A DNA stretch of 64,000 nt from a filamentous cyanobacterium CCT1 (GTDB lineage: Bacteria; Cyanobacteriota; Cyanobacteriia; Phormidesmidales; Phormidesmidaceae): contig PYER01000001.1 in assembly GCA_003017855.1 (NCBI GenBank), positions 1 to 64,000 on the forward strand. The letters are read 5' to 3'. Under the pieces are notes generated by a model. The model did not search any database, had not been told where the DNA came from, and saw only the letters and a list, made by a program, of their open reading frames with translations. Positions 38,245 through 58,000 of this stretch are shown piece after piece. How positions within the stretch are numbered: position 1 is the first letter of the stretch; each line of letters starts with the position of its first letter. The translations under genes were made by a program, and so were the position numbers.

Positions 38245-39069
38245 TCAACTTAGCACTTCTTGAAGAGCGTTACGATGACCAAACCGTTCAAAATCGTAGC
38301 GCTCATCCCACCAAAGCCAATTGCTTGAATCAGCCCAAACGCTATGCTTTTTGAGGATTTCCAGCCGGGAAAGGGCAAGACCACCAAGAACAAAGTCAGG
38401 GCGACTCCAAGTGAGTAAGTCATCAAACTCTTGGTTTGACAGGCCAAATTTGAGCCCCATCGGCATTGCTTTTTCGGCCTTGAGCAAGCCACCTAAGGCA
38501 ATGTATCGGTAGCCAATATGCCGATATTCGCTGATTAAAGACGATAAAAAGCTTTTGGGCGTGTTGAAATAAGGAAGTAGAGAGTCGATCTGAGGGACAT
38601 CTATAAAAGACCAGTTGTATAGTGCATGCCCTGCTTGAACCACACCAATTAATTGATAAATTCTAGATTTTTTAAGATACTCTTCCCAGGTTATTCGGGC
38701 TAAATGAAGTGATAACAGAGGCTCATTTATGATGTCTGGGGCGAAAACATAATCCGGAGAAAACTTGTCGCACCTGTCTAAAAAACTAGCTATCCAAGCT
38801 TGGAGATCTTGCAAATCAGAAAGAATCGTCTTTCTTACCCAGCGCTGATTTTCAAAAACGGAGATATTGCTCTTGTACCAAGTATTCTTGCCATCATCAA
38901 AGACGCCACTATCAATAAAGAAAGGCTTATTCGTTTGATGAAGAGCACTCAAAAAATTATCGGATTCAATAATGGTTCCCAAAATACCATAATCGCCTTC
39001 CAGAGCCTTGATCCGATTTAATAAATTCATCCTATTAACAGCAAAGATGGGCATGAATTTTTTATTCAT
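38245..39069 (-). CDS. dpdA: TGT-like 7-deazaguanine DNA transglycosylase DpdA
   Basis: PFFIDSGVF (cf. TGT DSG), SPDYVFAPDII, IGVVQAG, YIALGGLLKAE, ADSSNWLW near the C-terminus. Confidence 0.85.
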   Translation of the reverse strand: MNKKFMPIFAVNRMNLLNRIKALEGDYGILGTIIESDNFLSALHQTNKPFFIDSGVFDDGKNTWYKSNISVFENQRWVRKTILSDLQDLQAWIASFLDRCDKFSPDYVFAPDIINEPLLSLHLARITWEEYLKKSRIYQLIGVVQAGHALYNWSFIDVPQIDSLLPYFNTPKSFLSSLISEYRHIGYRYIALGGLLKAEKAMPMGLKFGLSNQEFDDLLTWSRPDFVLGGLALSRLEILKKHSVWADSSNWLWWDERYDFERFGHRNALQEVLS

Positions 39070-39182: not shown

Positions 39183-41420
39183 TTAAGGCTGCAGTTGTGC
39201 ATTCATTTTTGCCCAGTTTACTATTTCTCTAACAACTCCACTTTTCCCCCGGCAGGACATTGGCAAAACTCTTCCACTCAATGAACTAGCTTTCTCAAGT
39301 TCAGAGATTATATTGCTCAAGTCATGACCCATATAGCCAGTGATAACGGCAACCAGATCACATTTTTTTATTCTATTTTGGACACTGCTACGGCTGATAT
39401 ATGCCTCGCTAGAAGGGGCTACTTCAACCACTTCTTGTACTTGATAAATCGAAGTCAATTCTCGTACCACTTCGCGTCGAGTTGCTTCATGACCACCGAC
39501 CAATGCTAAACGTAAAAACGAAAGGTCAGGTGAAGTCTCTTTGCTGTCCTCAGAGGAGTGAACTTGGATGCCAAGCTTTATTGCCTCATCCTTGCTCTGC
39601 TGCTGGTATTCAATGAGTTGAGGAACGGTTTCTGGGCTGAGGTAGTGAAGGGCACGTTTCAGATTCTGAAAAAAGGGTTCTTCGGAACGCCCCTGTCGTA
39701 TAGCGTTGTCAATTTCATCGATCGCAATTCCTTGGTACTCATTAGCCAGACTCAAACGTAGTTTTGGCAAAAGGGCAACATAGGGCTCAAGCCCTTCCAA
39801 AATTTCAAAGTGCTGCCTACGGTTGATCTGTTGGCTAGCGGAAATACCGCGTAAGTGGGCTAACTCAATCTCCAGGTCATCCACCCGTTGCTGGTTGGCC
39901 AACCAATCTAGCCAATCGGCATAGGCAATGATGAATTTATCCAATTGATATATTTGTTTCCAGAGCTTTGCTCGCTCTTTCAGGATGTCCTCAGCATTTG
40001 GTAGAGTAGCAACTCTTGAACCTGCTACCTCAACACACTGCTCGTAGTAACTAACCTCTTGCTCATCAGATATATTGCCAAACCCTCCTAAAGATGAGAG
40101 TGTTGCAATGTTAGCTCTGTCTTCAGGTAACAGATGCTCAGGAGCAATGTCCATGAGAATTAAATAAATTTCTGCTGCATTTTCAGGATTACCCTCTGTG
40201 GACCAAAGACGAGCTAAAGGTAGTAGTATTTCATATTGACGCTCTCCTGCTTGCCAAGCACTCTCTAAAAGGGGTCTAGCTTGAGATTTCTGCCCCATTG
40301 CATAGAGAGCCGCGCCTTTTAGTCCAGCTAAAGTGGGAGGGAGCGCAGCAATTGGTTCTGGTAGAAAGTCAATTACTTCTTTAAAGCGGCTACTAGATAG
40401 CAAGATTTCTATCTGCCGAACTTTGACAGTATCTTGATCCTTTTTAGTTTTAGCAGGAATTGATTGATACAGTTCTAAAGCCTTGTCTTCCTCTCCGACT
40501 GCAGTATAGGCAGCTGCCAAATCAAGTGAAACAGAAGTTGATTGAGGATGTTTAACCTTCAATGCCTCTAACTGAGGAATACGCTCTCCAGGTTCCACCT
40601 TCACTAATTGAGACAGTTGCTCACTAAGAGTAGCATCGGCTACTTGTTCCATAGGCTCTTGCGGCTTAAGTGCTTGATGGAGAATCTGCCGTACTCCATC
40701 AGCCTGACGAATCCGCTCTAACTCGGGTAAAAACTCCTGGGCAATCTGTTGAACTGTATGCAATATTTCTAGCTCATCTTCTTGCTGAGCTAGCTGAAGA
40801 TGAGCTACTACAATTTGCTCAACTAATCTACCTGACACAGGCAACGCCAAAACTTCATTCCATCTAGTTGAGCATAATTCAACAATTTTTTCTGACTTTT
40901 CCGTACGGGCATATAAATTGATCAAAGCTCTCAAGGCATTGCTATCGTTAGATGATTTTGAATTAAGTAGCCTTTCCTCTAGAGTTATTGCTTGCCCACC
41001 AATAACTAATCGTTCAACACTAGCTGAGTCAATACCTTTGTCTGTAAGTGTAGCAGCTGAACTTGTCGTATTTAGTTCTTGAAGAACTCTACGGAATTCT
41101 GATTTCCATGATCTAAAATTTTGAGTTGCATTCGCTTGTACTACAGCATAATCAGACGCTATTTGAGCACTCCCTTGGTTGTAGGAGGACTCAATAAATA
41201 ACCATTTTTCACGTAGCTGTTCCTCTGTAGTATTTATGTAGATAAAATGTGTATACCAAGTGGGAAACTGTGGGAAAAGCAGCTTAGAACCAACTTTAAA
41301 GTACTTTTCAACTGCTCTGTAAACCTCTTTGGCTTGCAGTTCACTAACGCATTTTAGTTGTAGCCCAACCTGTTCAGGTCTTCGAGGATTTGGAACAATC
41401 GCATATTGAGGAAATTTCAT
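39183..41420 (-). CDS. TPR-like protein with DUF2325-like C-terminal domain (module 2)
   Basis: C-terminus LRLALVGGHEATRREVVREL...KCDLVAVITGYMGHDLSNIISELEKASSLSGRVLPMSCRGKSGVVREIVNWA; TPR-like repeats in the middle. Confidence 0.7.
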   Translation of the reverse strand: MKFPQYAIVPNPRRPEQVGLQLKCVSELQAKEVYRAVEKYFKVGSKLLFPQFPTWYTHFIYINTTEEQLREKWLFIESSYNQGSAQIASDYAVVQANATQNFRSWKSEFRRVLQELNTTSSAATLTDKGIDSASVERLVIGGQAITLEERLLNSKSSNDSNALRALINLYARTEKSEKIVELCSTRWNEVLALPVSGRLVEQIVVAHLQLAQQEDELEILHTVQQIAQEFLPELERIRQADGVRQILHQALKPQEPMEQVADATLSEQLSQLVKVEPGERIPQLEALKVKHPQSTSVSLDLAAAYTAVGEEDKALELYQSIPAKTKKDQDTVKVRQIEILLSSSRFKEVIDFLPEPIAALPPTLAGLKGAALYAMGQKSQARPLLESAWQAGERQYEILLPLARLWSTEGNPENAAEIYLILMDIAPEHLLPEDRANIATLSSLGGFGNISDEQEVSYYEQCVEVAGSRVATLPNAEDILKERAKLWKQIYQLDKFIIAYADWLDWLANQQRVDDLEIELAHLRGISASQQINRRQHFEILEGLEPYVALLPKLRLSLANEYQGIAIDEIDNAIRQGRSEEPFFQNLKRALHYLSPETVPQLIEYQQQSKDEAIKLGIQVHSSEDSKETSPDLSFLRLALVGGHEATRREVVRELTSIYQVQEVVEVAPSSEAYISRSSVQNRIKKCDLVAVITGYMGHDLSNIISELEKASSLSGRVLPMSCRGKSGVVREIVNWAKMNAQLQP

Positions 41421-41971
41421 TAGAATAGCACCGCTTCTTCAAAATGCTGTATACAGATTTGGCGTAGTTGAGCTATGCTCCGTTCATCATGACAGTAGGT
41501 ATATAATTCAGCGTTTTGATTAACCCCGCCATCAGTCAGGTTCAAAGAGCCATCAAGCCCACCATAACGACCCACGTAAGCTTTGGCATGCAATGTAGAT
41601 AGAACTCGCACTTGAATGCGATCGCTGCGGCTAGCCAACAATTTCAACGAAGGGTGATAGTCTGTGTCGCTGCCAACGGTAATGTAAATTCTTCCACCAT
41701 TTGCCGAGATTTGATGGAGTACGTCAAATAAGTGCAGTGAATCCTGCTTGGTCTCTACAACCTCCTGAAACGAGACGTAGTAAGGATTGGCGAGCCGGAA
41801 GTTTGTAACCCAAGGCGCAACAATCCAAAATTCATAGTTACGTCCTAACTGAGAAGCAAGCACCTCATTTAGTAAGAAGTTGTAAAACATTGCCTGCCCA
41901 CTGGGCTGAAACTTTGTTGATCGCTTTGCCACGGGATAGACCTCACTCAATAGGACGTACAGTAACTTCAA
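41420..41971 (-). CDS. phospholipase D-like protein, DpdK-related (module 2)
   Basis: LHAKAYVGRYGGLDGSLNLTDGG; FWIVAPWVTNF aligns with VSPWVSDI of the other copy. Confidence 0.75.
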   Translation of the reverse strand: MKLLYVLLSEVYPVAKRSTKFQPSGQAMFYNFLLNEVLASQLGRNYEFWIVAPWVTNFRLANPYYVSFQEVVETKQDSLHLFDVLHQISANGGRIYITVGSDTDYHPSLKLLASRSDRIQVRVLSTLHAKAYVGRYGGLDGSLNLTDGGVNQNAELYTYCHDERSIAQLRQICIQHFEEAVLF

Positions 41972-44900
41972 TGATGGGCGGTTGATTGACCGTTAGGTCA
42001 GTGGGATAAATGGTCCGAATATCAGTAATCATGGGATAGACCATACCCAAATCTGTGTCGACTCCAGCATCGGTTAGGTAACTGATCGCTGCACAAAGAG
42101 AGGAAAGGCGATCGCTAGGGACACGAAGGTAAACTGCCTGATACCCTTTCTCCAGCAGGAGCCGAATCTGCTCAGAGATAGGAGTGAGTGATACTGTTGG
42201 GTCACCAGTGCCATCATCCAAGTTCAAGGTTTGGTTGGAACGGACTTGAGCTAGCCAGTCGCTGAGTAGAGAACGGTTTAGGAGATTACGACTCAGTCCA
42301 GGAGCTTCAATATCGCCGCCCCGATCATCCAGACAACTTGGGCAGCTACAGCGGCAATTTATCAGCATCCGCCGTTCTACGGCTGATTCAAATGCTCGAC
42401 GTACTTCTGATGTGTTCGAGTTGTATTCAAGTCTATACAAGCGAAGCAAACGAGTGAGTTCAGGATACGGCGATGGAGTATCTGGCTGATTTAAAGCGGA
42501 TGCGACTGCGCGATAGAGGGTAGCTCTTGCTTCTGCAAAGGATGGCTCACGACCAAATTGTTGAATACAGACAGGAAGAAAAACTTGATTGATTTCTCTG
42601 AAAATACGCCAGTTTATCAGGCGGCTTCCGTCAATTTGCTGAGCGTAGTCAGGGATGAAGACCCTGAGTAATACTTTCAGATGTTTCTGCTGAACAATAA
42701 CCTGCATTTGCTGCCGGACTTCAGACAATAATGCCTCGATCTCAACTTGGCGATCGCTAGAGCTACGAGCTTGAATCAGAGCGTCAACAAGTACCTCACA
42801 TTGGGCTAGCCAATCTTCGGGTTGAGACAGTAGATGACGGAGAAACGCTTCTTCCTGGGCAGTGGGGCAATAAGTCATTCGGTGCGCCAGGGTTGTCCAG
42901 AAACGGTCTGGATTCTTCCGAAGCAAGTCTTGAGTTGCCCGCATTACACCGATACCACCCATACCAATTTCATAAAGCCAAATGCGATTGTCAGTCCGGT
43001 TATCAAAGTCAAGCCGCAGCCTCGTCCAAGCCGACACATAATTTAGAGCCTCTACCCCTGCTACCTCCTGAGCAACTTGATTCAAAGCCTGAGTCAGACT
43101 GTATTGGAAACTGTCATAAAGATAGTCTTGGTAAAGATTTCCGTTGGTTTGTATCTCCTCATAGAGATCCAGAAAGACTGCCAAATAATTGTTAGGACTG
43201 GTAATCAGTTGCAGAACGGCTTCACATTTCTTTGGCGAAAACTGGTGGATTTCATTAATAGCTTGAATGGAGCGGTGATTAAACTCGTTATTGCCTGCAA
43301 CAAACCAGTCTCGCATCCCTTCTAGAGTGCCTCCTTGCTGGTGACACCAATCATCTGCAATGGTTAGAAGGACATTTGCTAAGTTTTCCGCAGCAAAGTA
43401 ATTTTCCCTGTACTCATCCTCAATAGTCAATTTCGTGATAAAAGCATGACGAATTGCATTACTACGAAAATTGGTGCGAGTAGAAGATGAGAGTGTGACA
43501 TCTGAGATAGCATTGGGTTTGATTTCAACACTGATACCTTCAGTAATGAGTTGATACCCCAAAGCACAGTTACTCATATCATTCTCAGTGGCTGTAAAGC
43601 CAACAACCCCTCTGATGTCGTCTGCTCTCGACTCATGGAATTTCAACGTATACTGGCTACCGAGAATAATGCGACGAACATCCAGTAGATTCAAATTATC
43701 CGGTTCATCACTATACAACACAATTTCCTGAACTAAATTTTCCCCAAGACTGTCACATGAGACAGATTGATCGCTTGTTTTGAGTGTGTATTTAGCCGTT
43801 GGGGTATCACCTATCGGACGGACATAGATGGCACTGATGGACTGTGCTGAGCAAGAGTGCGCTAGTTGAACCATATCCTGTGGTGCATCTTGTGGACTAC
43901 GGCATTCACACAATTCCCCGGTATTTGGATTGCAGTACCAGAACGAAGAGTTGTAATCCTGGCTGAACTGTTTGGGTTCAATTTGGGTGGGACGATAAAC
44001 TGTCAAAAAGTTTCGACTGCGTGGCGTAATCCCAACCAACTTGAGTGCTCGTTTAGGCAAATAAGCTGTGCTTGGGCTATTATCAAACTGGTCTTTTGAG
44101 GTGTAGTACTGGTTCAGAGGTAGCAAAGACTGCCCGTCTGTAAGGAGAGGTGGTATCCATGTCGAGCCTTCGCCACCCCGAAAGGTTACATTGCCTGGAA
44201 TAGTTTCACTGATAGCCAAACTAATACTCTCTGGGTTAGGTCGTTTGTTAAAACGGTGATCATCAGGGCGATAGTCTACCCGAACTTCTGGCAAATTGAT
44301 GTCTGAAAAAAGATTGTCAGGTAGATGCTGAGTTAACATCTCCCGTGCGTTAACTGTTGGCTTATTCTCCCGATCAAATTCTGGATGTACTGCTATCATC
44401 AAGCCTTCGCAAAAAATGCTCCAGAGGAGCCCATCCGAGTCAGGATCACCTAAAACTCTTAGCAAAGCATCGTTATCAACTATCGCGAACGATTCCTGTA
44501 AGTAATCCTTAAAAGCAAACATCATGTTTGCATTGGCTGTTTGGTCTAACAGGTATTGATAACCCTGACGCGACAGATTCTCTAGATTGAGTTCTACACC
44601 CACAAGACTTGCTCGGTAAGTCAACCAATCAAATAGTGCATAGAATCCATGAATTCGTTGAAGATAGCGGTTTTGGGCATTCAGAGGTAGCTTCTGAAAA
44701 GTGGGATCTGTCAGTAGATGCTCGTTGCGAAACAGAAATAAATCCGTTGGTTTATAAGGGCTAAGAACTGTAGCAACAATCGGTCGTGTGCCTACTTTTC
44801 GCCCACCCCGGCCCTTACGTTGAACAAAGCTGGCAACGTTAGCAGGTGCAGTGTATTGAATAACACACATGAGTGCTTCATCGTCGTAGCCAACTTCCAA

Positions 44901-47000
44901 GGCACTGGTTGTAATGACGAGATCATCTTCTTCTTCAATGACAATAGAGCGATCGCTCCCTGACTTGCGCTTGATATTGAGAGGCTGACTACGTGCTTTA
45001 TCTTTTTGACTTAATACCCACCAGCACTCCCCAGCCTGAAAGAGAGGACAAGTTGGGTCAGGAGTGCAACTATTTTCGCAATTGCAGTTGTACTGGGTAG
45101 TAGGACCAAAAAAATTAGGAAAGAGTAGGCGATTAAAGGGTGGGTAACGGTAGGCATACAAGGGAACATATCTGATTGGGTAGGCATCATCAGTGGGTGC
45201 GATTCGCTCGCTTTTTAATTGTTGCCGTCTCTCAATTTGGTAGTCCTTGACCTTTTCAGCATCTTGCATCTGATACAGCCAACGGCCAACGATATCTAAA
45301 GATTGCACAAAACCGAAAGTACGATAACGATTCAAGCTACTACCTGCTACCGGTTGTGGCATCGTATGCAGCACACACATTGCTGCTTGAATTAATGATG
45401 AAAGAACCGCTGTATCTTCGGTATCTTCAGCACGGGCAAAGATAAAACGCTCTGCCCCAATTATCTGCATCTCATTATCCTGAGGATTAACCTTCTCAAT
45501 CCGCATTGGGTCAATACCGGAAAGCTCGGAAAGGAATTGTTTAGGATGGGCGATCGTAGCACTCAGACCAACAAAGGCAAGGTTGGCTTGTTCTTGTCGA
45601 TCTCGCTTACCCATACGAATCCGTGATAGGAGTCGGCGCAGCAAAAGAGCAACTTGAGTTCCTGCTGTGGAAGTTTGCAAGTGGATCTCGTCCAGCATTA
45701 CCACAGAGGGCGCGCAGAAAGTTGTAGTCCCGAACAGGTACTGGTATTTTGAAGAGATTAATCGCCGATGAAGAGATTCTGTAGTAGCAATTAGCAGATC
45801 AGGTGGTTCCTTCTCCATCAAATCCCGAGCAAATTTGATGAAGGGATATGTCTTTTCACACTTAGGGCAGGCTAAGACTTCAGGTTGAGTCGGACGAGCA
45901 AGAAGTCGTTGAGGAGTTGTATTGCAGTCAAAACCTGAGGTTCCTACACAGTAAGCAAAAGGTGATAAATAGCCTTGATAATCTTCCCTAAAATTCCAAC
46001 CTTTTTGCTTAGCAAGTTTTTGTTTCTGAGAGTCATCTACCTTTTGAAAATCACTTACTTGATAAACAGCTGCACCGCTTTCCAAACCTATGGTAATGGC
46101 AGGAAGGTTGTTAACAGCTAGTACTTGGTTTAGGTGATAGAGGACCTCAATGAAATCTGTAAGTTGGTTTTCTGAAAGTGCTATCCGTGGATAAATACAA
46201 ATTGCTTTGACTCCGATCTTTCCACGAAGACAACGTTCAAGAACCATTTTGGCTAACACTGGGAGGAAAAAGGCATAGGTTTTTCCAGCCCCTGTACTAG
46301 CAGTAACAACAACACCCCGTTCTATATTCTGTTGTGAATCTAGTTCGATCGTTTGCAGAATAGCTCTGAATGCTTGGCGCTGAAAACCACTCACCTGTTG
46401 TAGTTTAGCCAGGGTCTGCTCGATCACTGTTAACAGAAGACTAGCAGTCTGTTGCTGCTCTGAATTGCCGTAGAGTAGTAGCCCCATACACCGTCTGACA
46501 GGGACATTACGTCGTGGAACCCGGCGAGATACAACACTAAACTTTACGTCTTCTATAAGTCGCTTACTTTTACTTATGCGATGTGCTATTTTAAGATTGT
46601 TTTGATTAACAATACGTTGGCGGAGTTTAGTCAGAAGACGGACTGTTTCTGTTAGCCGACTACGGAAAATCCATTTTTTGGGTAGTTCTTCTTGATTAAA
46701 CCGTATGATTTCGAGATTCTCTGAAAGCTTCTTTAAAGCACGATTTATTTGAGGTTCTCGTTCTTCTAAAGCCAAAGAAATATCTTCAGACGGTTGAAAG
46801 CTTTCAATAACTTCCTGCCCAGTTAATGTAACATCGTAAATTCCGTAAGCGACTTGCTCAGATTCTCTTTGTTCAATGAAAGTTAAAACTTCGTCTACCA
46901 ATTTTAATAGAATATCAGTCTCCACAGTCTTACCCCTGAATCGTATAGTTTGTATCAAATTGGTATAGATAAGATCGAACTTCCCGAAGGATACTTGCAC
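41943..47000 (-). CDS. giant DEIH-box SF2 helicase, DpdJ-related (module 2)
   Basis: VVTASTGAGKTYAFFLPVL, VVMLDEIHLQTSTAGTQVALLLRR, VGLSATIAHPKQF, ITTSALEVGYDD, VQRKGRGGRKVG; C-terminal Cys cluster CRCSCPSCLDDRGGD. Confidence 0.85.
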   Translation of the reverse strand: MQVSFGKFDLIYTNLIQTIRFRGKTVETDILLKLVDEVLTFIEQRESEQVAYGIYDVTLTGQEVIESFQPSEDISLALEEREPQINRALKKLSENLEIIRFNQEELPKKWIFRSRLTETVRLLTKLRQRIVNQNNLKIAHRISKSKRLIEDVKFSVVSRRVPRRNVPVRRCMGLLLYGNSEQQQTASLLLTVIEQTLAKLQQVSGFQRQAFRAILQTIELDSQQNIERGVVVTASTGAGKTYAFFLPVLAKMVLERCLRGKIGVKAICIYPRIALSENQLTDFIEVLYHLNQVLAVNNLPAITIGLESGAAVYQVSDFQKVDDSQKQKLAKQKGWNFREDYQGYLSPFAYCVGTSGFDCNTTPQRLLARPTQPEVLACPKCEKTYPFIKFARDLMEKEPPDLLIATTESLHRRLISSKYQYLFGTTTFCAPSVVMLDEIHLQTSTAGTQVALLLRRLLSRIRMGKRDRQEQANLAFVGLSATIAHPKQFLSELSGIDPMRIEKVNPQDNEMQIIGAERFIFARAEDTEDTAVLSSLIQAAMCVLHTMPQPVAGSSLNRYRTFGFVQSLDIVGRWLYQMQDAEKVKDYQIERRQQLKSERIAPTDDAYPIRYVPLYAYRYPPFNRLLFPNFFGPTTQYNCNCENSCTPDPTCPLFQAGECWWVLSQKDKARSQPLNIKRKSGSDRSIVIEEEDDLVITTSALEVGYDDEALMCVIQYTAPANVASFVQRKGRGGRKVGTRPIVATVLSPYKPTDLFLFRNEHLLTDPTFQKLPLNAQNRYLQRIHGFYALFDWLTYRASLVGVELNLENLSRQGYQYLLDQTANANMMFAFKDYLQESFAIVDNDALLRVLGDPDSDGLLWSIFCEGLMIAVHPEFDRENKPTVNAREMLTQHLPDNLFSDINLPEVRVDYRPDDHRFNKRPNPESISLAISETIPGNVTFRGGEGSTWIPPLLTDGQSLLPLNQYYTSKDQFDNSPSTAYLPKRALKLVGITPRSRNFLTVYRPTQIEPKQFSQDYNSSFWYCNPNTGELCECRSPQDAPQDMVQLAHSCSAQSISAIYVRPIGDTPTAKYTLKTSDQSVSCDSLGENLVQEIVLYSDEPDNLNLLDVRRIILGSQYTLKFHESRADDIRGVVGFTATENDMSNCALGYQLITEGISVEIKPNAISDVTLSSSTRTNFRSNAIRHAFITKLTIEDEYRENYFAAENLANVLLTIADDWCHQQGGTLEGMRDWFVAGNNEFNHRSIQAINEIHQFSPKKCEAVLQLITSPNNYLAVFLDLYEEIQTNGNLYQDYLYDSFQYSLTQALNQVAQEVAGVEALNYVSAWTRLRLDFDNRTDNRIWLYEIGMGGIGVMRATQDLLRKNPDRFWTTLAHRMTYCPTAQEEAFLRHLLSQPEDWLAQCEVLVDALIQARSSSDRQVEIEALLSEVRQQMQVIVQQKHLKVLLRVFIPDYAQQIDGSRLINWRIFREINQVFLPVCIQQFGREPSFAEARATLYRAVASALNQPDTPSPYPELTRLLRLYRLEYNSNTSEVRRAFESAVERRMLINCRCSCPSCLDDRGGDIEAPGLSRNLLNRSLLSDWLAQVRSNQTLNLDDGTGDPTVSLTPISEQIRLLLEKGYQAVYLRVPSDRLSSLCAAISYLTDAGVDTDLGMVYPMITDIRTIYPTDLTVNQPPIIEVTVRPIE

Positions 47001-49209
47001 TTCCCTTAGTGTTAACCCTTAGCAATGGTAATTCACCTCTATTTTTTTCTATAAAGTTAGTTGCTGCATGTTTAGCACTAGCGGTTACCATAATTACAAG
47101 ATCGTCATTCGTAACCCACATTTTTAATTGATCGCTACCACCTTTAGCATGGCTTAAGTGTACCTTGATTCCTTCACAAGCTTTTTCAAGGAAAGCTTTG
47201 ACTCGCTGTGCTACAGGTTCAGTCAGTGTATAAATCAAAATTGTCTTATTGGTGAGCTGCTGTAATATACTAGTCTCGGTTGGCTCACCAGATATCTCTT
47301 CCTGAGGAGGCAAGTCTGGGAAGGAAGTTTGTAGATTCAAGTCTTGAACTAATGCTGCAAATAAGCTCCATTGAACTTCATCAATACGGCCAGAAAACTG
47401 TCGAAGCGTTGTTGCCGCTGCAAAGAGTAATCGGGATCGAATTTCCTCTTCTGGACAGGGTTGTAAAACCAAAATGTTGATGAAATCTAGAACCCAATCC
47501 ACTTTTGCTGGAGAGCTATATTGATCCCATAAGTCAAGACCATAACCGACAATTTCTTGATAAGTACTCTGGTTAACACCTAAGTAAAGCAATGCGATTA
47601 CTAGGTCATTGAACAGGCCTAAGTCAGGATCGCCCCCTTCACAGTTGAATGCCAGTAAGTCCAATAGATAGGCATAGATGGGCGCAAATTCTCGACGAGG
47701 ATATTCATCGTCACTTTGAAATGCTCCTAAAAAATGGGGTAGGGCGTTTGCCAAAGTTTTTCCTGACACCGTATCTCCCCCTACCATCTTTAACAAATTC
47801 GCGAATTTTTGAGTGGCTCCACTTTCCTCGAGTAATTGGGTAATATCCCACTCTTTTTCGCCTCGTCGGGCTATGTCGAGGGCTAAATCCCAGCCTGGAT
47901 TCTTCTGAAGCTGCTGAAGCCAATTGAGCCAATTGTCGGGAATTTGTTCTGTTGTTTTTTCGTCCCCACGCAGGTGCTTTAAGCAATTCTGACCAAGTCG
48001 AGTATTGCCTAAAGCTTCTTGGTCTTCTGTGGAAAGCTGCCTATAGGCGTTCAGTGCTTCTCGTTGAGTATCTAATGTTTCTAACTCATAAAAGACTTGG
48101 AACAGAAGTTGAGCTTTTCGTAGTGAAGGGGGAGCTTGAGAGGCAAACTCAAATACCTCATCCCAAGCTAGCCTTTGTCCGGCCTCTTCCGCCTCTTTTA
48201 AAGGATCAGCGACTACGGTTGAGGGTGGTGCAGACTGAGTTGGTGAAATATTAGCCAACTGCTCAAGATAAGCTTGGTCTTCCGCTCTTAAACCTGGAAT
48301 GCTGAGCAGTTCATCGCGTAATGCCGAGTTTGGTGTTTCGCCACCTACGGCCAGCAGCATAAAAGATTTCGCTATTTCGGGTTGGCGGCTATTGGCCCGA
48401 GCGGTGTATAAGCTGCTGTATTTGGGAAAAATACTTTCGTGGAAATAGGTAACTGCACTCTGAACAGCCTTGGTTGACTCAAAGCGATAAAGCTCCTGTT
48501 GGTAAACAGTACGAATGAGCGACTGAGTCACCTCGTAAGGGCGGCGGGTGCCTAATAAATCGGGCAGTTCTGGTAAGGCGAGCAGTTCTTCCCATTCCTC
48601 TAGGTCGGAGAGCATCCGTACCTTGAGGAACAGCAAGTTTTGAGGATCTAAGCGATTGTGGGTTTTGAGATAGTGAAGTTGATGCTCAGCGGCGGGGCGA
48701 TCGCAGGCCTGCAGCGCCATATAAAAATCTCGCAGGACGCGACCTGTGGCTCTTGGCGTTTCATAGGTTTGGGCTACCCGGCGATCCAGCACCTGACGCA
48801 TTAGTTCTAGGGCTTGCCAAATCTCACGGGATTTTCCATCACCGTCAGAATCTCCCTGAAACTTGAACGCCAATCCCCCTGTGAAGGCGTAGATAGAGGC
48901 TTCCACTGGGTCGCCTAAGTTAAGTTGGGCTCGTTGACCTCGAAATGTAGACCAAGTAGGGCCAACAAAAGCGGTTAGATCTTCTCTAAGACCCCTTAGT
49001 TGGCGCTCAGATTGGGCTACACCATACCAATCAGTTCCTTGGTCATGCCCATAGGGCAGCACAGAGGGCAAACCTTGCTCAAGCCGCGCAATCCAGGGTT
49101 GGAGCATATGGGCAGAACCGTCAACAGACTCAATGGCATTCAGCTTGATTTGATTGTCATCACCAAAGAAACGTTCTAAGAACTGGTGGGTGTCTAACTT
49201 GATTTCCAT
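46930..49209 (-). CDS. ~760-aa accessory protein with DUF2325-like C-terminus (possibly DpdD- or DpdI-type; module 1)
   Basis: C-terminus TILIYTLTEPVAQRVKAFLEKACEGIKVHLSHAKGG...NDDLVIMVTASAKHAATNFIEKNRGELPLLRVNTKGSASILREVRSYL. Confidence 0.65.
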   Translation of the reverse strand: MEIKLDTHQFLERFFGDDNQIKLNAIESVDGSAHMLQPWIARLEQGLPSVLPYGHDQGTDWYGVAQSERQLRGLREDLTAFVGPTWSTFRGQRAQLNLGDPVEASIYAFTGGLAFKFQGDSDGDGKSREIWQALELMRQVLDRRVAQTYETPRATGRVLRDFYMALQACDRPAAEHQLHYLKTHNRLDPQNLLFLKVRMLSDLEEWEELLALPELPDLLGTRRPYEVTQSLIRTVYQQELYRFESTKAVQSAVTYFHESIFPKYSSLYTARANSRQPEIAKSFMLLAVGGETPNSALRDELLSIPGLRAEDQAYLEQLANISPTQSAPPSTVVADPLKEAEEAGQRLAWDEVFEFASQAPPSLRKAQLLFQVFYELETLDTQREALNAYRQLSTEDQEALGNTRLGQNCLKHLRGDEKTTEQIPDNWLNWLQQLQKNPGWDLALDIARRGEKEWDITQLLEESGATQKFANLLKMVGGDTVSGKTLANALPHFLGAFQSDDEYPRREFAPIYAYLLDLLAFNCEGGDPDLGLFNDLVIALLYLGVNQSTYQEIVGYGLDLWDQYSSPAKVDWVLDFINILVLQPCPEEEIRSRLLFAAATTLRQFSGRIDEVQWSLFAALVQDLNLQTSFPDLPPQEEISGEPTETSILQQLTNKTILIYTLTEPVAQRVKAFLEKACEGIKVHLSHAKGGSDQLKMWVTNDDLVIMVTASAKHAATNFIEKNRGELPLLRVNTKGSASILREVRSYLYQFDTNYTIQG

Positions 49210-49212
49210 ACC

Positions 49213-49722
49213 CTATCTTTCGCCTCCCCAACGGTCTCTGAAATTTAGCTTTTGTTCTGAAATGGCCTCTAGGGCTGTTTCATAAATAAGCGTCTCCTCG
49301 TTGACGGTGATGCCGTTGAAGGTGAAGTTCATGGAGCCAGCCAGAAAGAAGGCATCTGACAGCATTCCTTTCGTGTGGAGTTCCTCGGCCTGATGGATTC
49401 GTAGGTAGTTGTTGTTAGCTAGAGTGCCCAGGGTCTCTACAAAGCTGCGGTTGTGGAGGTCGGGGCGAGTGGCTACGCAGACCGTCGTGCCCAGTTGGGT
49501 TAAGGTAGCTAACACTTGCACAAGGCGAATTTTGGATCGGGGCCACGATGGCTCTAGGGCTAGAAAGGTATTGGCTGTGTTGTCGATAATGGGAATATCG
49601 GAAACCCAGGGGGATACTAGCCACAGGCAGGCACTGGGGGCAATGAGTTCTGCCACCAGGAGTGCCTGAAGCAAATCGGGCAGTTGCCGAGAGCTAAAAC
49701 GAGAGTGAATGGTTCGGCTCAC
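49213..49722 (-). CDS. dpdK: phospholipase D-like protein DpdK (module 1)
   Basis: LHTKGMLSDAFFLAGSMNFTFNG (HxKx4D); follows the DpdJ-like gene with a 4-nt overlap. Confidence 0.8.
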   Translation of the reverse strand: MSRTIHSRFSSRQLPDLLQALLVAELIAPSACLWLVSPWVSDIPIIDNTANTFLALEPSWPRSKIRLVQVLATLTQLGTTVCVATRPDLHNRSFVETLGTLANNNYLRIHQAEELHTKGMLSDAFFLAGSMNFTFNGITVNEETLIYETALEAISEQKLNFRDRWGGER

Positions 49723-52700
49723 TGCAACGTCTCCCGAATGCGAAGGCGGGCAATATACCCTTGGGAGGTTCTGCGCATCCCTTCTACAGCGGGATACAAA
49801 TTGAGAAAACCAACATCTACAGGCTCCATCATTATTTTCAGCAAGGCACCTTTTAGAGCTTGGCGGCTGGTGGAGCGAGCACTTAGGGAAGCGGTACCCA
49901 CCGTTCTGAGGGCTTCATTGACCTGCTCTTGCCAGTTGAGTTCTTCTAGTTTGACTAGGGTTTCGGCGGGTTGTAGAACATCCAGCAGAATTTCGCGATC
50001 GGCCTCGGGCACAATGCTAAACGGGTTATAGAAGGAGACAGCCCGGTTGCGGATGACACTGCCCCGCAACCACAGACGACCATACAAAACCTGGAAACAA
50101 ACGTAGGGATCTTGGCGAGCACCGGGGGGTAAGGCCTCGGTCAACTCCGGTTGGGTACTGGCCACATAGGCAAACACCCGCGCATCGACTTCAATGCCTA
50201 ACCGTTCTTCTTGCTCTTGCCATCGTCGCAGTAACTCCCTGAGTTGATGATCAGTAGCCGTTCCACTACCGGGCGACAGAATGCGGGCGTGAATTGCCGT
50301 CATAACTGCCGGAGTGATGAGAATACCTTCCCCTTGCAAGACTCGGCGAAGGTGTTCGCTGGCTTGGGTGAGAGTATGGTGGGAATCGGCGGATCTTACC
50401 TGGGTAAAGACAGACTGTACCGATTCACTGGTTTCAGATAGCTCTAAAAGGGTAGTAAGTTCTGAATCTACGACCTCAAAGTCTGAAGGCTCTAGAGCAC
50501 TCTCGACCAATCGCAGAAAGCCAATAGGATCTTCGGTATAGCGCTGGAGAATTTCTTCAATGACGCCGCTGCCTCCTGGGCTCGCTTCTGTGAGCCAAAT
50601 TTCCTCTAGGTCTTCTGCCAAAGGAGAAGATCCTGGGGGGCGCGGGCCTGAGTCTAGGTCGAGCAGCAAATCTTCGGAGTCGAACTGGGGGCAAAGCTGA
50701 CGGCAGGCTTCTAGGATTGCTCCGCCTAAGGTTGCTCGGAAGCGTTGTCTAGCCCAGTCGTGCCAGCCCTCATCGGGCTGTTGCCAGAGAATCTGGGCCA
50801 GGTCATTGAGAACCGTTTGGACTTCTGCGCTTGAGGCAAGCTCTCGAAGTCGTTCATGGGTGGGTTGTCTGCCAGGGGGCAAGTTAGGAGCTATCTGATC
50901 GCTTAAATCGGTGAGCCCATCGGTGGTGGTCTCGTCAGAGGTTGCCTCATCGCTGGGCTCTTCTACGCTGAGCGTTTGGAAGATTCGATCCAGTACAGTG
51001 GCCATTTCCTGGCCCAGATCTTTTTCTTGGAGAGTCTGGTAGGCATCGGGTAGAGAGACTTCATTCTGTAGAGCGTAGGCCACCAGCATAGAGAGGTAAA
51101 TTTGGTAGAGCCAGTCGCGCTGGAAAATATTGGCGATGCCATCGAGACGGACATCGTGTCGAACGCGATGGCGAAAGTATGACGTGCGAAACGCGTGAAC
51201 CTTGGGTCGGTTGGCGTCGTAGGGGCTAAGGGTGAAATCTGCGGGAATGCGATAGTGAAAGACGATGCCGTCTACGGTTTGGGCAAACCCAACTCCGGCA
51301 GGTTGACCATTGGCAGCTTCCACAAAGCGAATGGAGGTTTCCACTTCTTGGGTCTGGCGATTTTTCTGAATTCGCAGGTTGGCCTCAGACCCCATGGCAA
51401 AGCGACGCACCTCCAGAGGGTTCTGCTGGTTGTGGGTAAAGTTATATACCGCGTCTAGAATGCCGAGCCAAAATGAACCCTGGGGCAAGTCCATGGGAGT
51501 ACCCCGGTCTGGCGGCATAATTTGGGTATGCCATTCCAGTTGGGCGTTGGATTTATCGCTGACCTGGGGTGGAATTTGCTCCACCTGCAAAGTCCAGGGG
51601 CGAATGCAGCGAATGTCAGTAATTTGGTCGTTTTGCCAAACCTGGAAGGTGCCTGCTTCTTCGTATTCGGTGCAAATCTGCTCGATCGCCAGGTTTTGCA
51701 CCCCACTTACCAGGGCTGCTGGAGCAATCCAGTGGCTGATCTGTCCTCGCTGAATGCCGAAGCGTCGTGATACGCGCCCTGGGGCGAAGGTTTTGATCGC
51801 TTGCAAAATCGGTAGGTAGTATTCCTCTGGCTCAGTAGAGCTTTTGGTAGGAGGCGGTGTGACGATACGGACTTCGGGCAGCAGCAGGTCACTGAAGAGG
51901 TTGGCGGGCACAAAGTCTGGCAGGGGTTCTCGGGTGTGATAGTCCAGTTCAGGTTCACCCGGCAGTTGTAACCGCTTCCATCCAGTTTCGAGGCGTCGTA
52001 ACAACGTAGGTAATACCCCTGTCATTAACGCTCTGGGTGGATCCCATAGAATAGGTTGAAGGTCTTCGTTGGATAGACCTAGCGCTTCTTGAAGGTAGGC
52101 TTCTAGGGTCGTGTAGGCTTCTCCACCTTCAAGGATATGACGGATGATTGCCACGGCTTGGCTCTGGCGCTGCTGCCAGGAACCTTGGGCGGGGCTGGCA
52201 AAATCTTTCCACACGCTACCGCGAGGAGTGGCGGGCAGTTGCTGGGCAACCCAATCCATAAAGGCAAAGGCAGCCTGGATGCGGATGACATAGCGGTTAG
52301 ACAGAGGCAGCAGGCGTTCTTCAAGGATGGGGTTGAACAGTAGGTCGTAGCTCTGGTAGGCAATGCGATCGCGTCCATAGTCCGACAGCACAACCACGGT
52401 CCAAGGTCGCATGGTGCGGCGGCGACCGGCTCGGCCCTTGCGCTGAAGAAAGGAGGCCATGTTGCGGGGGGCTTTGTGCTGGATGACGGCTCCTACGTCA
52501 GGATCGTTGAAGCCGACTTCTAAGGACGCAGTGGCGACAATTATGTCTGAGTCGGCATCCACTCCAGTGTCTTGGGAACTGGTACGGGTGATTTGTAGAG
52601 GATTCTCTAAAGTGTGGCCAATCTCTTCGCACAGGTACCAGGATTGTCCAGATGGAAGGCGATCGCTGGCATCAGGATTACTGTGGGTGCGGAGAGCCGC

Positions 52701-54308
52701 CAGGGGTTGCCTGCGGGCTATTGGTCGTCCCCAACTGGATCTAGCTTCGGCATCTAGCAAGTTATGGAAGAGACGGTTGGTGACATCTAAATCGTCGGTG
52801 AAGGCAAAGACCCGTGACCCGTAGGCTCCTTGACCGGGGGAGGCATCCGCCGGATCGAGAATTCGGCGCAGCAGCATGGCGGTTTGAATGCTGGTGGACA
52901 GTAGGCTGGTGCCGGAGACGGGGTCGCCTCGGAGAGCTAACAGATATTCCATGCCTTCGGGCTGAACATCGCTGCCGGGAGCAATTTCTTCCACGCTGCC
53001 AGGGGCCAGGCCGACTAGCTGAGTAAAGAACTCGGCGGCGCTTTGGAGAGTGGCGGAGAGCCCGGTGAACTGAACTTTCTTACCGATCACCCGTTGCCAG
53101 CGGCGCAGCAGGTAGGCTACCTGGGCACCGTGGATGCCGGTGTAGGTGTGGACTTCATCGAGTAGGACAATCTGGGGAGGCTTGGTAGCCCCAACTCCAA
53201 AGATATGGCCATATACTGAATCGCCCATTGAGCGGTTGAGCATTTCGGTGGTGGCAAAGAGGATGTCGGGCGGAGTCTTGGCCATGCGATCGCGGGTTAA
53301 CATCACCTCGTCTTCTGTGACCTCGGCTCTGCAGTTGAGGTCAAGGCAAACCAAACGCTCTCGTTCTTGCCCAATGTCTTCTCGTCGCCAGCTAAGGACA
53401 CCTTCACACTGAGGACAGCGTAGGTAGGGACAGGTAAAGCCACCTCTTTCAGCCTTCCAATTGCCCTTCAAGCTGTAATCTTCTGGGTTGGCTTTTCTGG
53501 GAGTTAAGCCGAAAAAGGCTCCAATGGTGAGTTTTCGTTGCCCGGCCTGGTGCAGAACCGCATCGAGGCGGCGGGCTTCGAGATAGGTTTCGGAGAATTG
53601 GTCTTTGAGCAGTTCTTGGCGGGGATAGATAGCCAGGGCCTTTGTCCAATAGGCGTCTTTGGCAGAGTTTTTTTGAACAAGGCCTGCGAGATGGGTGAGA
53701 GCTGGCAGGTAAAAGGCAAGGGTCTTGCCGGTGCCGGTGCCTGCACAGACGATCATGCCGCGACTTTTGGTGCTTTTGAGGTCGCGCAGCATGCGGGTGG
53801 TGGCCCGGAGTTGGAAGTCAGCTAGTTGAAGGGTGCGATCGGGGGAAACCAGCATGGCCTCTAGGGCAGAGTGCTGAGTTGGGGAAAGGAGTTTGTCAAC
53901 TTCGAGGTGCTGGAGAACGGCTTGGGGCTCTAGGATGCGGGAAGGGTAGAGGCGCTGACGGAGGGAGAAGCGATAGTCAGCAACGAGGGTAGGGGCGGTT
54001 TGCCAGTCGCGCTTGGGGAAAAGCTGGCGCAGGCGAGCAAAAAGGCGCACGGCCTCGGCCATACGGGTGCGGTAGCGGCGGCGACCTCTCAGGTTAAAGT
54101 CAAAGAGGAGCTTGCGCTCCTGCATAACATCAATAAGATCCCACGGATCAGCATCCAGACCTGATTGATCAATACAAGATTCCGACAAGTCTGTGATTTC
54201 GTCCTCGCTGAAGCCGCCATCAACAACACCCCAAGTTAGGAGTTCGACTTCCTTAAGTTCTAGTTGGTTTAGGAAGACTTGAATTAGGGTACTGAGATCT
54301 TCGTCCAT
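49719..54308 (-). CDS. dpdJ: giant DEVH-box helicase DpdJ (module 1)
   Basis: IVCAGTGTGKTLAFYLPALTHLAG, IVLLDEVHTYTGIHGAQVAYLLRRW, FTGLSATLQSAAEF, VATASLEVGFNDPDVGAVIQHKAPRNMASFLQRKGRAGRR. Confidence 0.85.
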   Translation of the reverse strand: MDEDLSTLIQVFLNQLELKEVELLTWGVVDGGFSEDEITDLSESCIDQSGLDADPWDLIDVMQERKLLFDFNLRGRRRYRTRMAEAVRLFARLRQLFPKRDWQTAPTLVADYRFSLRQRLYPSRILEPQAVLQHLEVDKLLSPTQHSALEAMLVSPDRTLQLADFQLRATTRMLRDLKSTKSRGMIVCAGTGTGKTLAFYLPALTHLAGLVQKNSAKDAYWTKALAIYPRQELLKDQFSETYLEARRLDAVLHQAGQRKLTIGAFFGLTPRKANPEDYSLKGNWKAERGGFTCPYLRCPQCEGVLSWRREDIGQERERLVCLDLNCRAEVTEDEVMLTRDRMAKTPPDILFATTEMLNRSMGDSVYGHIFGVGATKPPQIVLLDEVHTYTGIHGAQVAYLLRRWQRVIGKKVQFTGLSATLQSAAEFFTQLVGLAPGSVEEIAPGSDVQPEGMEYLLALRGDPVSGTSLLSTSIQTAMLLRRILDPADASPGQGAYGSRVFAFTDDLDVTNRLFHNLLDAEARSSWGRPIARRQPLAALRTHSNPDASDRLPSGQSWYLCEEIGHTLENPLQITRTSSQDTGVDADSDIIVATASLEVGFNDPDVGAVIQHKAPRNMASFLQRKGRAGRRRTMRPWTVVVLSDYGRDRIAYQSYDLLFNPILEERLLPLSNRYVIRIQAAFAFMDWVAQQLPATPRGSVWKDFASPAQGSWQQRQSQAVAIIRHILEGGEAYTTLEAYLQEALGLSNEDLQPILWDPPRALMTGVLPTLLRRLETGWKRLQLPGEPELDYHTREPLPDFVPANLFSDLLLPEVRIVTPPPTKSSTEPEEYYLPILQAIKTFAPGRVSRRFGIQRGQISHWIAPAALVSGVQNLAIEQICTEYEEAGTFQVWQNDQITDIRCIRPWTLQVEQIPPQVSDKSNAQLEWHTQIMPPDRGTPMDLPQGSFWLGILDAVYNFTHNQQNPLEVRRFAMGSEANLRIQKNRQTQEVETSIRFVEAANGQPAGVGFAQTVDGIVFHYRIPADFTLSPYDANRPKVHAFRTSYFRHRVRHDVRLDGIANIFQRDWLYQIYLSMLVAYALQNEVSLPDAYQTLQEKDLGQEMATVLDRIFQTLSVEEPSDEATSDETTTDGLTDLSDQIAPNLPPGRQPTHERLRELASSAEVQTVLNDLAQILWQQPDEGWHDWARQRFRATLGGAILEACRQLCPQFDSEDLLLDLDSGPRPPGSSPLAEDLEEIWLTEASPGGSGVIEEILQRYTEDPIGFLRLVESALEPSDFEVVDSELTTLLELSETSESVQSVFTQVRSADSHHTLTQASEHLRRVLQGEGILITPAVMTAIHARILSPGSGTATDHQLRELLRRWQEQEERLGIEVDARVFAYVASTQPELTEALPPGARQDPYVCFQVLYGRLWLRGSVIRNRAVSFYNPFSIVPEADREILLDVLQPAETLVKLEELNWQEQVNEALRTVGTASLSARSTSRQALKGALLKIMMEPVDVGFLNLYPAVEGMRRTSQGYIARLRIRETLQ

Positions 54309-54335: not shown

Positions 54336-55040
54336 CTAGTCAGCTAGTTTGATTTGAAATAGACGGGTAATTCCTTTGTCTCTCAGCCATGCCTCGACCT
54401 CTGGAGTTAGGCTATCTAGCGAGGCCCCAACAGTAGACGTAGCCTTAAGAAAGTTCAAGACGGACTCTGGCACTTCATTTGACTTAAGGCTATCCCAAGC
54501 ATCAGATAATTCAGAAATGAAATCATCTACTTGCTTAAATTGATTTTCATTTGCAGGAAATCTTATGTTTTCTAAGCGCATAAGGATGCTCTTAACCTTT
54601 TGCACGGTTGGTCTAAAGGTCGAGATTTTTTCTAGCAGATCGAGAAGTTCTCGATTCGTTGTCGGCAGTTCTTCTTTTTTATATGTATGCCATGCCTGAG
54701 ATAGTTCAACCTCAAGAGAATCTTTAAGAACTTTGAACTTAGAATTCAAAGCTGCAATTTTGAATTCTTCTCCGACGAGAAACCCTTTATCTTCAGAAAA
54801 CTTGCTTAGTGTGGCTAATATCTCTTTTGAAAACTGATCGGCTTTTTGGTCAACAGTAAACTTGTTTATGCCTTTAGCGTTGAATGCCTGAAGAGCTATT
54901 ACTAGAGGAGATAGTTCTTTAACAAGTGCCTGAATCTGATCTTCGCGATTGCGAAACTTTCCTAGATCCGTCGCATATTTCTTCAGGAAGCCGATATCCT
55001 GAGCGTGCTGACTCATTTTTTGGCAATCTTCTAGGAGCAT
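54336..55040 (-). CDS. coiled-coil-rich hypothetical protein of the dpd operon (possibly DpdI-type)
   Basis: 234-aa helical protein, 10-nt overlap with the dpdH-like gene. Confidence 0.55.
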   Translation of the reverse strand: MLLEDCQKMSQHAQDIGFLKKYATDLGKFRNREDQIQALVKELSPLVIALQAFNAKGINKFTVDQKADQFSKEILATLSKFSEDKGFLVGEEFKIAALNSKFKVLKDSLEVELSQAWHTYKKEELPTTNRELLDLLEKISTFRPTVQKVKSILMRLENIRFPANENQFKQVDDFISELSDAWDSLKSNEVPESVLNFLKATSTVGASLDSLTPEVEAWLRDKGITRLFQIKLAD

Positions 55041-58000
55041 GCTGCTTCTCCTTTGATTTCACTAGCCAGTTGCTGCAACTCTAAGAGCGATCGCTCAATA
55101 GCCACATAGCTCGCTTCCAATTCCCCACCCTCTGCCGTTCTCAAATCGGCCAGGTTACTTTGAACTGCTTCCTGCGATTTATCTACAAATTTCCGTGCAT
55201 AATCAAGAAACTTGGTAATGACTTCGACTGGTCGTTCTGGCAAGCTGCTGAGCAGAGGTAGCAGCGTAGCGATTTCATTCATGTCTTGGAGTTTCTGCAG
55301 CTTACTTAGGTAATCTTTCAACCTGGCTCCTTTGAATTCCTCCATCACCTTTTTTAGGTCGTCTCGGTTAGTCCCTCTGAATACCCCAACCTCTGTAACT
55401 CTCTCAACAGTCTGCAGAAGTCCCTTAACCACTTCTGCCTGGGAGAAATCCTCACCTAACTCCTCTAAGACTCGTTGGTAAATAGCAAGATGGCGATCGC
55501 GCTCATCCCAAACGGCTTGCTCCAATAGTTCATCCACCTCCTTTCGTGCCTTGCTGATGGCATCAAAAGGAGAATCTGAACTAATATCAGAGATATCTAC
55601 TTGAGGTTTCCAAGTTGCGGCAACTGATTTAAGGGGGCCAACTAACTGAACGGCATCAATTACCTGTAAGACCGACCGACCTCCCTTCGTACAGGGAATT
55701 CTGCTTTCAAGAACTTCTCGCAGCTTGGGTTGATGCTTTTTTAAGCTATTGAACAACTTTTGCCAAGTCCCCGCTCGGTTTGATACATCGACTTTTTCTA
55801 AGTCGGTGAAAGCAGCATTAACTAAGTCTTCTAGAGACGTAGTCGTGCCTCCGGCCATACGACCCGCGATCGCCAGCAATTCTACTACAGACGGCACTGG
55901 ATCCCCATCTACACCTGATTTTGTTGAGCACTTGGGTACAGACTGAAGCACATACTGACTCCAGTCTTCTAGCTTTCGAGCGTAAACACGGAAATATTTA
56001 GCTCCATCTTTAAAGTTCCAATGTTGATGGTGATTGTAGAGTAATAGAGCTTGAAGGGCGATTACAGTATCCCCTAGATCCTCTGAGCTAAGGGGTAAGC
56101 GTAATTCAATATCTTTAACTAAAACAGAAGTTGCTGCATTAGAAAAAGTGATATTGCGTTGTTTAAAGAGTCTATTAACAACATGTGATCGCAGGATTAA
56201 TTCTGCATCCCAGTCAATGTAAGAATCTATAGCAATGAAAAGTTTAGGACGTAGTTCAGTAGCTACACCTGGAGGTAATTGAGTACCATTGCGCCAATTA
56301 TCTAAATCACGAATGTAACTATCTATTTCTAGTGGTGGAGGTAGTGGAGGTAGTGGAGGTGGGTTAGGATCTGGTGGAGGTGAAGGTAAAACGCTCCGAC
56401 TAGGGACATTGGGCAAGTCAAATGCCGTGTGAACTTCTGAGGGTAGATTGCATAGCTCAGGACTATCTGACCAGAAATTTAGCAATGCTTCACGACGATC
56501 AGCATTCACCGGATCTTCGGTCTTGATGTCTTTAACTAAGATAGCGTTGAGTTTGCTGCCCCCAAAGTGATCCAACAATAAAGTTGAGGGAAATTGACCC
56601 TTCTCCAGATCAGAGCGATGGTACTCCAGGGTATAGCGCAGCACGTCCTTAATTAACGTGCGTGGATTAAAAACACCTTGGTTGGTGCGTTCCCGCATTA
56701 TTTTGAGCGCTGTTGCATTGAATGGATACAAGCCCATGCCATCAACAGCACCGAACCCCGCATGGCAACTGCTTTGATGTTCACAGTCAATACAGGCGTT
56801 AGGGATAGCTTTAATGGGCTCTCCAGTTTCTTCATCCACATTAGTCAGCCAATCTCGAATATCCGGATCCTGCAATCGAACTGCATTTAAGTAACGAGCT
56901 GCTAACTGCTGGACATCTGCAGGCGTTACTAAGGATTGTTCGCCTACAGTTTCAACGTCCAGATTCACTATAAAATCTGTACGTGTCCGTACTGTGTCTA
57001 CTAATCCCTGAAAGTAACCCGTTGTACAAGCCAGAGCCGTTCGCATTGCACATAGAGGTTCTCCTTGCCCTTGCTGAGAACGCGCTAGTACAGCTTCTAG
57101 AACTTCGCGATCAATACCTTGGAGTTTGGCAAAATCCTCAATCAACAGAATTAGTTCAACATCTTTTCGAGCCAAAGCTCGACGTACATCTAGCATCAGT
57201 CGCTGTAAGTCTTCACGCCCCAGATTCAAGACTTTAGCGATTGCTTCATCCAAGTGAATATTAAGCCATGCTACTGTGGCTTTCTGAATCTCATCATTGC
57301 CGATTAAAAAGCTGTAAAAGTCCTGAGCCTGGGCACTGGCCTTAGTAATGTTAAGGACATTTAGCGGCAAATCTTCCAGAGAAAACTGCCGTCGCTCCTC
57401 CACAATTTCAACTGATTCGCGGCGACCCAGGATATGTATTACCAATCGATGGATGATGCCTTCCTTCTTTAGCCAGTGCTCCCGGAAAAACGGATCGTGG
57501 AGTAGTGCTGGTAGGGACTTAATCAGGTAGTCCTGTTCATCAGATAGATTCGAGGCATCGTGTCGTCCACTGGAACCAACGGCAATTGCCAGGTTAGCCA
57601 ATAGTTGCTCCCGTGCCTCAGCCTCTGTCAGGGTATTAGCCGCTTGCCGCAGTCGGTTCCGATACTCATCAAACTCCGGCCCTTCAACATCCGCCAAGAT
57701 CAATTCAATGATGTCTCTCAGATTAGTCCCTACTTTGGGGATCAGCAAAACCCGGTAATGCGGTGCTTTCCGAATACTCCGAATTCGGGTATAGAGCCAA
57801 CGAATCAGATGCGATTTGCCAGTGCCAGACGTTCCCAGAACGGAAACAAAGATAAAGTCAGATGTTGACAGAAAAGTCTGGAGAAATTTTTCTTCACTAT
57901 AGGTTGCATTTCGCTGTGCCTCTTCGATGCTCTGGAAATGCATTTTGACAGGCGAGTGAGTTGCCAGAAAAATGTGTTCTTCAGGTTGAGTAGCCTCCAC

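Follow-up and report, generated by a model that had tools for sequence, protein, structure and literature searches.

The canonical Dpd system, as introduced in PMC12839542, comprises dpdA-K and performs 7-deazaguanine restriction-modification (Thiaville 2016, Yuan 2018, cited therein). Among 2,335 unique dpd windows, GATOR-GC recovered just one extra copy of dpdK (PMC11888242), and a double helicase–PLD–scaffold triplet does not appear to be standard in published dpd loci. According to the main text of PMC12458937, YprA-type helicases (MrfA, DrmAB) translocate on DNA with the help of a zinc canopy, uncharacterized Dpd-like classes exist, and some deeper-branching Dpd-like helicases keep a four-cysteine cluster. 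The same text describes BRIGADE, a system confined to halophilic archaea whose helicases are ARMADA-like and bear a BrxA-like insertion.

The dpd locus of the filamentous cyanobacterium CCT1 resembles canonical Dpd in having synthesis genes, a dpdB-like gene, and a full E-F-G-H-I-J-K-D arm. It differs in adding a helicase–PLD–scaffold cassette of another lineage (J', K', and D'), and in that a short TGT-like protein joins DpdA, which is itself fused to a DUF6884 domain. J' keeps the four-Cys DUF1998/MZB-type cluster that canonical DpdJ lost, a likeness to the "deeper-branching Dpd-like" YprA helicases (Bell et al. 2025, PMC12458937) that fits the remark made there; J' may belong to the uncharacterized Dpd-like classes of that work, the main text of which mentions neither a J'K'D' cassette, nor its cyanobacterial and Chloroflexota range, nor its stacking with a canonical arm. 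As in BRIGADE (as presented in that main text), two YprA-family helicases, 7-deazaguanine genes, and PLD or PD-(D/E)XK nucleases share one locus; unlike BRIGADE, the host is a cyanobacterium, and in our tree J' does not group with the haloarchaeal helicases of such loci. DISARM (DrmA/DrmB/DrmC) likewise pairs a YprA-type helicase with a PLD nuclease as effector, whereas J' is one polypeptide, there is no DISARM methylase, and the DNA is proposed to be marked with a 7-deazaguanine base. J'K'D' is likely to be a mobile effector cassette of three genes that serves as an alternative Dpd restriction arm and that in CCT1 was added behind the canonical arm.

Organization of the dpd Locus in CCT1

The stretch analyzed (the window) comprises the first 64,000 nucleotides of contig PYER01000001.1, which runs on to 88,674 bases. 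On the − strand, the operon reads dpdE-F-G-H-I-J-K-D, then J', K', and D', then the short TGT-like gene. dpdE (61481..64000; 1,099 aa) continues beyond the window to contig position 64780, and is followed by dpdF (58929..61484; 910 bits), dpdG (58054..58932; 128 bits), dpdH (55031..58057; 868 bits), and dpdI (54336..55040), which matches its model weakly (42.8 bits; cut-off 150). The first triplet is canonical, and exceeds the NCBIfam cut-offs throughout: dpdJ (49719..54308; NF041067, 1930 bits), encoding a helicase without the C-terminal four-Cys cluster; dpdK (49213..49722; NF041068, 206 bits), encoding a PLD nuclease; and dpdD (46930..49209; NF041061, 538.9 bits). The second cassette consists of J' (41943..46925), a YprA-family helicase; K' (41420..41932), a PLD-family nuclease; and D' (39183..41420; 745 aa). 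Beyond it lie the short TGT-like gene (38245..39069, − strand; 274 aa) and, opposing the operon from the + strand, a gene for a DGQHR/DndB-family protein, the candidate dpdB (37140..38240). The AT-rich island has a tyrosine integrase gene (33197..34381, + strand) at its left edge; tRNA genes or repeats marking the island borders were looked for and none was found, and a promoter and terminator scan gave no excess over shuffled sequence.

The six − strand ORFs of the two triplets, as listed in the first-pass annotation, are all present, with revised starts for J' and K'. Judging by the starts of homologues, J' most likely begins at a GTG at 46925, 4 nt past the dpdD stop, giving ~1,660 aa rather than 1,685 (listed ORF to 47000), and K' most likely at a GTG at 41932, giving 170 aa rather than 183 (listed ORF to 41971). 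The annotation had also described the second copy as more AT-rich. This holds relative to J and K (53–55% GC, versus 43–45% GC and 34–47% GC3 for the second cassette), and fails relative to D, G, H, and I, which are about as AT-rich; composition alone thus cannot single out the second copy, and AT-richness was discarded as proof of foreign origin.

The marking genes lie outside the window, with dpdA, queC, queE, and queD at 80.5–84.7 kb of the contig. The dpdA gene (C1:80480-81664) scores 476 bits to DpdA and adjoins the preQ0 synthesis genes queC, queE, and queD, as expected of a Dpd locus. Its product (L004:468-2525) is a fusion of a TGT domain with a DUF6884 domain, the latter being dpdC-type in PMC11888242. 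Between dpdE and dpdA, on the opposite strand (contig 64875-78169; L003:4875-18169), are TIR-kinase-CHAT, CHAT, NB-ARC-CHAT, and propeller genes, which look like another defense cluster.

The short TGT-like gene is a constant partner of dpdA: almost every cyanobacterial dpd locus surveyed has the two side by side. Profile comparison relates its product weakly to DpdA (E = 4.7e-5), and it has no match to Pfam or, by sequence search, to solved structures; it is possibly a second subunit of the base-exchange enzyme. The gene does not mark the second cassette specifically, because it is present in the canonical locus of G027, which has no J'K'D'.

Relationship of the Second Cassette to dpdJ-K-D

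J' matches the DpdJ model NF041067 at 516.5 bits (cut-off 800) and K' the DpdK model NF041068 at 77.1 bits (cut-off 100), and all 15 K' sequences match the DpdK family at E < 0.001. Profile–profile comparison bears out the proposed correspondence of the two helicases (J/J', E = 1.4e-72 over 1,241 columns, 26% identity) and of the two PLD proteins (K/K', E = 8.8e-14). The third pair is less straightforward. D' has no match to the DpdD model NF041061, nor does D' of Viridilinea, and profile–profile comparison found no full-length homology between D and D' (probability 0.5%). The C-termini, also said to correspond, align weakly by this method (~59 columns, E = 0.011); each protein matches DUF2325 weakly, and the C-terminal elements are predicted to follow the same order in both, strand-helix four times. 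D' is the same sort of protein as D, with an alpha/beta start, a helical repeat, and a Rossmann-like end, and is perhaps a very distant homologue without being a demonstrable copy.

In a helicase-core tree of 47 rows, the J' sequences of cyanobacteria and Chloroflexota group together (100/100), as do, separately, canonical DpdJ of cyanobacteria, Enterobacter, rhizobia, Paenibacillus, and Viridilinea (four phyla; 100/100), with J' outside that group; the remaining YprA-like helicases near dpd or que genes fall into further lineages. To the first-pass annotation's question whether the second helicase has a clade of its own, the phylogeny thus answers yes. Forcing J and J' of the window together was 778 log-likelihood units worse (p-AU 3.2e-5); a joint clade of J and J' was neither recovered nor rejected by the AU test (p-AU 0.226). 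These results bear on whether dpdJ-K-D was duplicated in tandem in situ in the CCT1 lineage and then diverged rapidly, as the designation "tandem duplication" had implied. The helicase–PLD–scaffold order does repeat head to tail, and J/J' and K/K' are homologous; against this, J' joins the J' of other cyanobacteria and Chloroflexota, the window pairing is rejected at the cost just given, and D' is not recognizable as a copy of D. We give duplication in situ next to no probability, and the tree and AU test rule out that the two triplets are sister copies made within the CCT1 genome. J'K'D' instead belongs to a separate, ancient lineage. The companion suggestion of an independently acquired paralogous module fared better, given the separate old clade of J', the cassette's own distribution, and its recent transfer as a unit (see below). 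The module may, as the annotation further suggested, have a different specificity or serve as an anti-anti-restriction backup.

Predicted Features of J', K', and D'

J' has a RecA1/RecA2 core and helicase motifs. Its C-terminal four-Cys cluster (C1549, C1551, C1553, and C1556) and an additional Cys set (C639, C641, C651, and C659; both in the numbering of the 1,685-aa ORF) were located, and the four C-terminal cysteines are invariant in 16 J' sequences, whereas no Cys is invariant in that region of canonical J. Loss of this cluster is a DpdJ trait (PMC12458937) that J' does not show. K' carries the HxK ... GSxN residues of the PLD superfamily, which are conserved in 15 homologues and in canonical K as well; K' lacks the Asp of the HKD motif. 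D' has a small alpha/beta N-terminus, a superhelix of TPRs, and a Rossmann-like C-terminus with the weak DUF2325 similarity. Its structural model is of moderate confidence (pLDDT 80, pTM 0.56), and a fold search with this model against the PDB returned generic TPR superhelices only; the D model (pLDDT 67.5, pTM 0.34) had no PDB match at E ≤ 0.001. Between CCT1 and Myxacorys, D' is 33–64% identical over residues 1–225 and 84–95% identical over residues 226–675, and residues 1–225 are a candidate specificity region.

Models in NCBIfam and PADLOC miss D' entirely, and J' and K' score under the NCBIfam cut-offs, so that J'K'D' loci can be annotated as dpdA without restriction genes.

Distribution, Transfer, and Maintenance of J'K'D'

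When 84,980 species-level genomes were scanned with the J' alignment, using two peptide patterns and therefore not exhaustively, 17 J' loci were detected, of which 14 are cyanobacterial and three are from Chloroflexota. In a sample of 386 genomes from the phylum of CCT1, Cyanobacteriota, four encode J' (CCT1 included), four encode canonical J, and two encode both; among 301 sampled Chloroflexota, J' is present in five, two of which also have canonical J. With few exceptions, the intact loci, which come from 14 named cyanobacteria and from several Chloroflexota, have K' and D' adjacent to J' and following it. The second triplet had been considered unfamiliar; this stands with respect to the published dpd windows and their one extra dpdK, and is qualified by its recurrence in other cyanobacteria and in Chloroflexota.

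The cassette has also moved. Between CCT1 and Myxacorys, DNA identity is 84–90% over 39223-40942 and 41332-46895, whereas the adjacent short TGT-like and dpdB genes retain only patches of 65–73% DNA identity (58–60% protein identity), and DpdA is 59% identical. Because the cassette is so much closer than its neighbors, it moved recently as a unit between dpd loci. In Scytonema NIES-4073, J'K'D' and the synthesis genes are on a conjugative plasmid, annotated as hypothetical proteins.

The dN/dS values for the same pair of genomes (J' 0.13, K' 0.07, D' 0.19) indicate that the cassette is maintained under purifying selection. They also argue, together with the intactness of all three ORFs and similar stacking in independent assemblies (L048, L057, L060, and Viridilinea), against a decaying second copy or an assembly artifact, which is very improbable even for a draft genome of 546 contigs with 4% contamination and with a broken J' known in Aliterella. 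In that genome (L055), E-F-G-H-I are followed by dpdB, a broken J', and a partial D', with no K' seen; no canonical J above cut-off was found genome-wide, which suggests an effector end that is decaying or has been replaced.

Association With the Marking Genes and With the Canonical Arm

Nine cyanobacterial genomes (Myxacorys, C42_A2020_086, Scytonema NIES-4073, Desmonostoc, Nostoc LEGE 06077, an uncultured Scytonema, Chamaesiphon, Symploca, and Fortiea) have J'K'D' in one locus with dpdA, the short TGT-like gene, and dpdB (DGQHR); D' is shortened in Chamaesiphon. Genome-wide searches of these nine for DpdF above cut-off, DpdH, and canonical DpdJ, the three families covered, found none, several of the surveyed genomes being MAGs or fragmented, so that absence calls are imperfect. 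J'K'D' thus accompany the marking genes where the remainder of the canonical arm is missing, and the simplest reading is therefore a compact arm that attacks unmarked DNA; J'K'D' is probably such a compact alternative restriction arm. With somewhat less assurance, we favor the view that J'K'D', dpdA, the short TGT, and dpdB form a distinct compact Dpd system in which three proteins replace eight, and that in loci such as that of CCT1 two arms are stacked on one mark.

Both arms occur in seven genomes: CCT1, Richelia, G649, Coleofasciculus S288, B12_bin-0982, Amazonocrinis, and Viridilinea, with canonical J and J' on separate contigs in Richelia and G649. In the stacked cyanobacterial loci, J'K'D' lie directly after D (window) or after dpdB (L048, L057, and L060). 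Viridilinea and G649, both Chloroflexota, combine J'K'D' with the full canonical set, and in Viridilinea the order on one strand is J'K'D'-E-F-G-H-I-J-K-D. Because the stacking orders differ, they suggest separate joinings. The stacking could alternatively mean that both triplets belong obligately to a single larger machine, with J'K'D' as an accessory by which the canonical E-to-K complex is sharpened or extended; the single operon in the window and in Viridilinea, the 4 nt from the D stop to the J' start, and the co-occurrence in seven genomes would fit this. We regard it as unlikely, given the nine cyanobacterial genomes with J'K'D' in which DpdF, DpdH, and canonical DpdJ were not found, and the canonical loci without J'K'D' (G027 and G199).

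The first-pass annotation had also proposed a survey of such triplets with and without dpdA. DpdA is above cut-off in 12 of the 14 named cyanobacterial J' genomes, usually at the same locus, and in two Chloroflexota with J'; in the other two cyanobacteria, the loci are cut by contig ends. That J'K'D' is linked to dpd loci yet acts independently of the 7-deazaguanine mark, as a separate defense system in the same island, is accordingly rather improbable, and the homology of J' and K' to Dpd effector proteins also counts against it. Pointing the other way are the clustering of defense genes in islands, the presence of a UvrD + PD-(D/E)XK pair and the TIR/CHAT cluster among dpd genes, and some Chloroflexota in which the dpdA match is weak or on a different contig from J'. 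In Roseiflexus and OHK40 (Chloroflexota), J'K'D' lie alongside other large genes, and in these Chloroflexota, as in Viridilinea and G649 with their full canonical sets, the cassette may need helpers.

Proposed Function

Under the reading of J'K'D' as an alternative restriction arm, QueD/E/C, the DUF6884-TGT fusion DpdA, the short TGT, and DpdB would mark the cell's own DNA with a 7-deazaguanine base. J', with its zinc canopy, would load on unmarked DNA and translocate; D', as a TPR scaffold with a Rossmann-like end, would link sensor, helicase, and nuclease; and K' would cut the DNA. J'K'D' would read the same self-mark as the E-F-G-H-I-J-K-D arm, using its own helicase, nuclease, and scaffold, so that blocking a single arm would leave a phage exposed to the second. 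We infer the individual roles from protein families, and likewise the cutting of DNA that lacks the 7-deazaguanine mark, the dependence on that mark, the division of labor between the arms, and redundancy as the selective benefit. Dpd restriction otherwise employs seven or eight effector proteins; a naturally occurring three-gene arm with the same modification genes would offer a minimal system for the helicase, PLD nuclease, and scaffold roles, and the stacked loci allow one to ask whether two arms on one mark give wider protection.

Other Effector-Like Genes in dpd Loci

A pair encoding a UvrD-type helicase and a PD-(D/E)XK nuclease recurs inside cyanobacterial dpd loci (L014:2870-6176, L019:2385-6020, L028:11611-14852, L012:11252-14803, and L047:6231-9475), and no other effector-like pair was seen next to dpdA, the short TGT, and dpdB in G157. 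It is possibly a third effector module; in the nine cyanobacterial J'K'D' genomes, neighboring genes, among them this pair in several cases, could contribute to the effector. On the Allocoleopsis plasmid pMIC7113.07 (L074), queD-dpdA-TGT-dpdB are accompanied by another YprA-like helicase (1,672 aa) and a 267-aa PLD protein, with no dpdE-I in the 18 kb examined; this locus is perhaps another minimal type. Yet another lineage of DpdJ-like helicases, weakly similar to the Zn-binding domain of MrfA, is present in G105 (L028:7361-11557), where it adjoins E-F-G-H-I and the UvrD/PD-(D/E)XK pair, and in L062, where it adjoins que genes. Several Chloroflexota (L069/L070, L071, L102, and L105) encode a 940–970 aa protein with weak similarity to DpdH near J' or dpdA.
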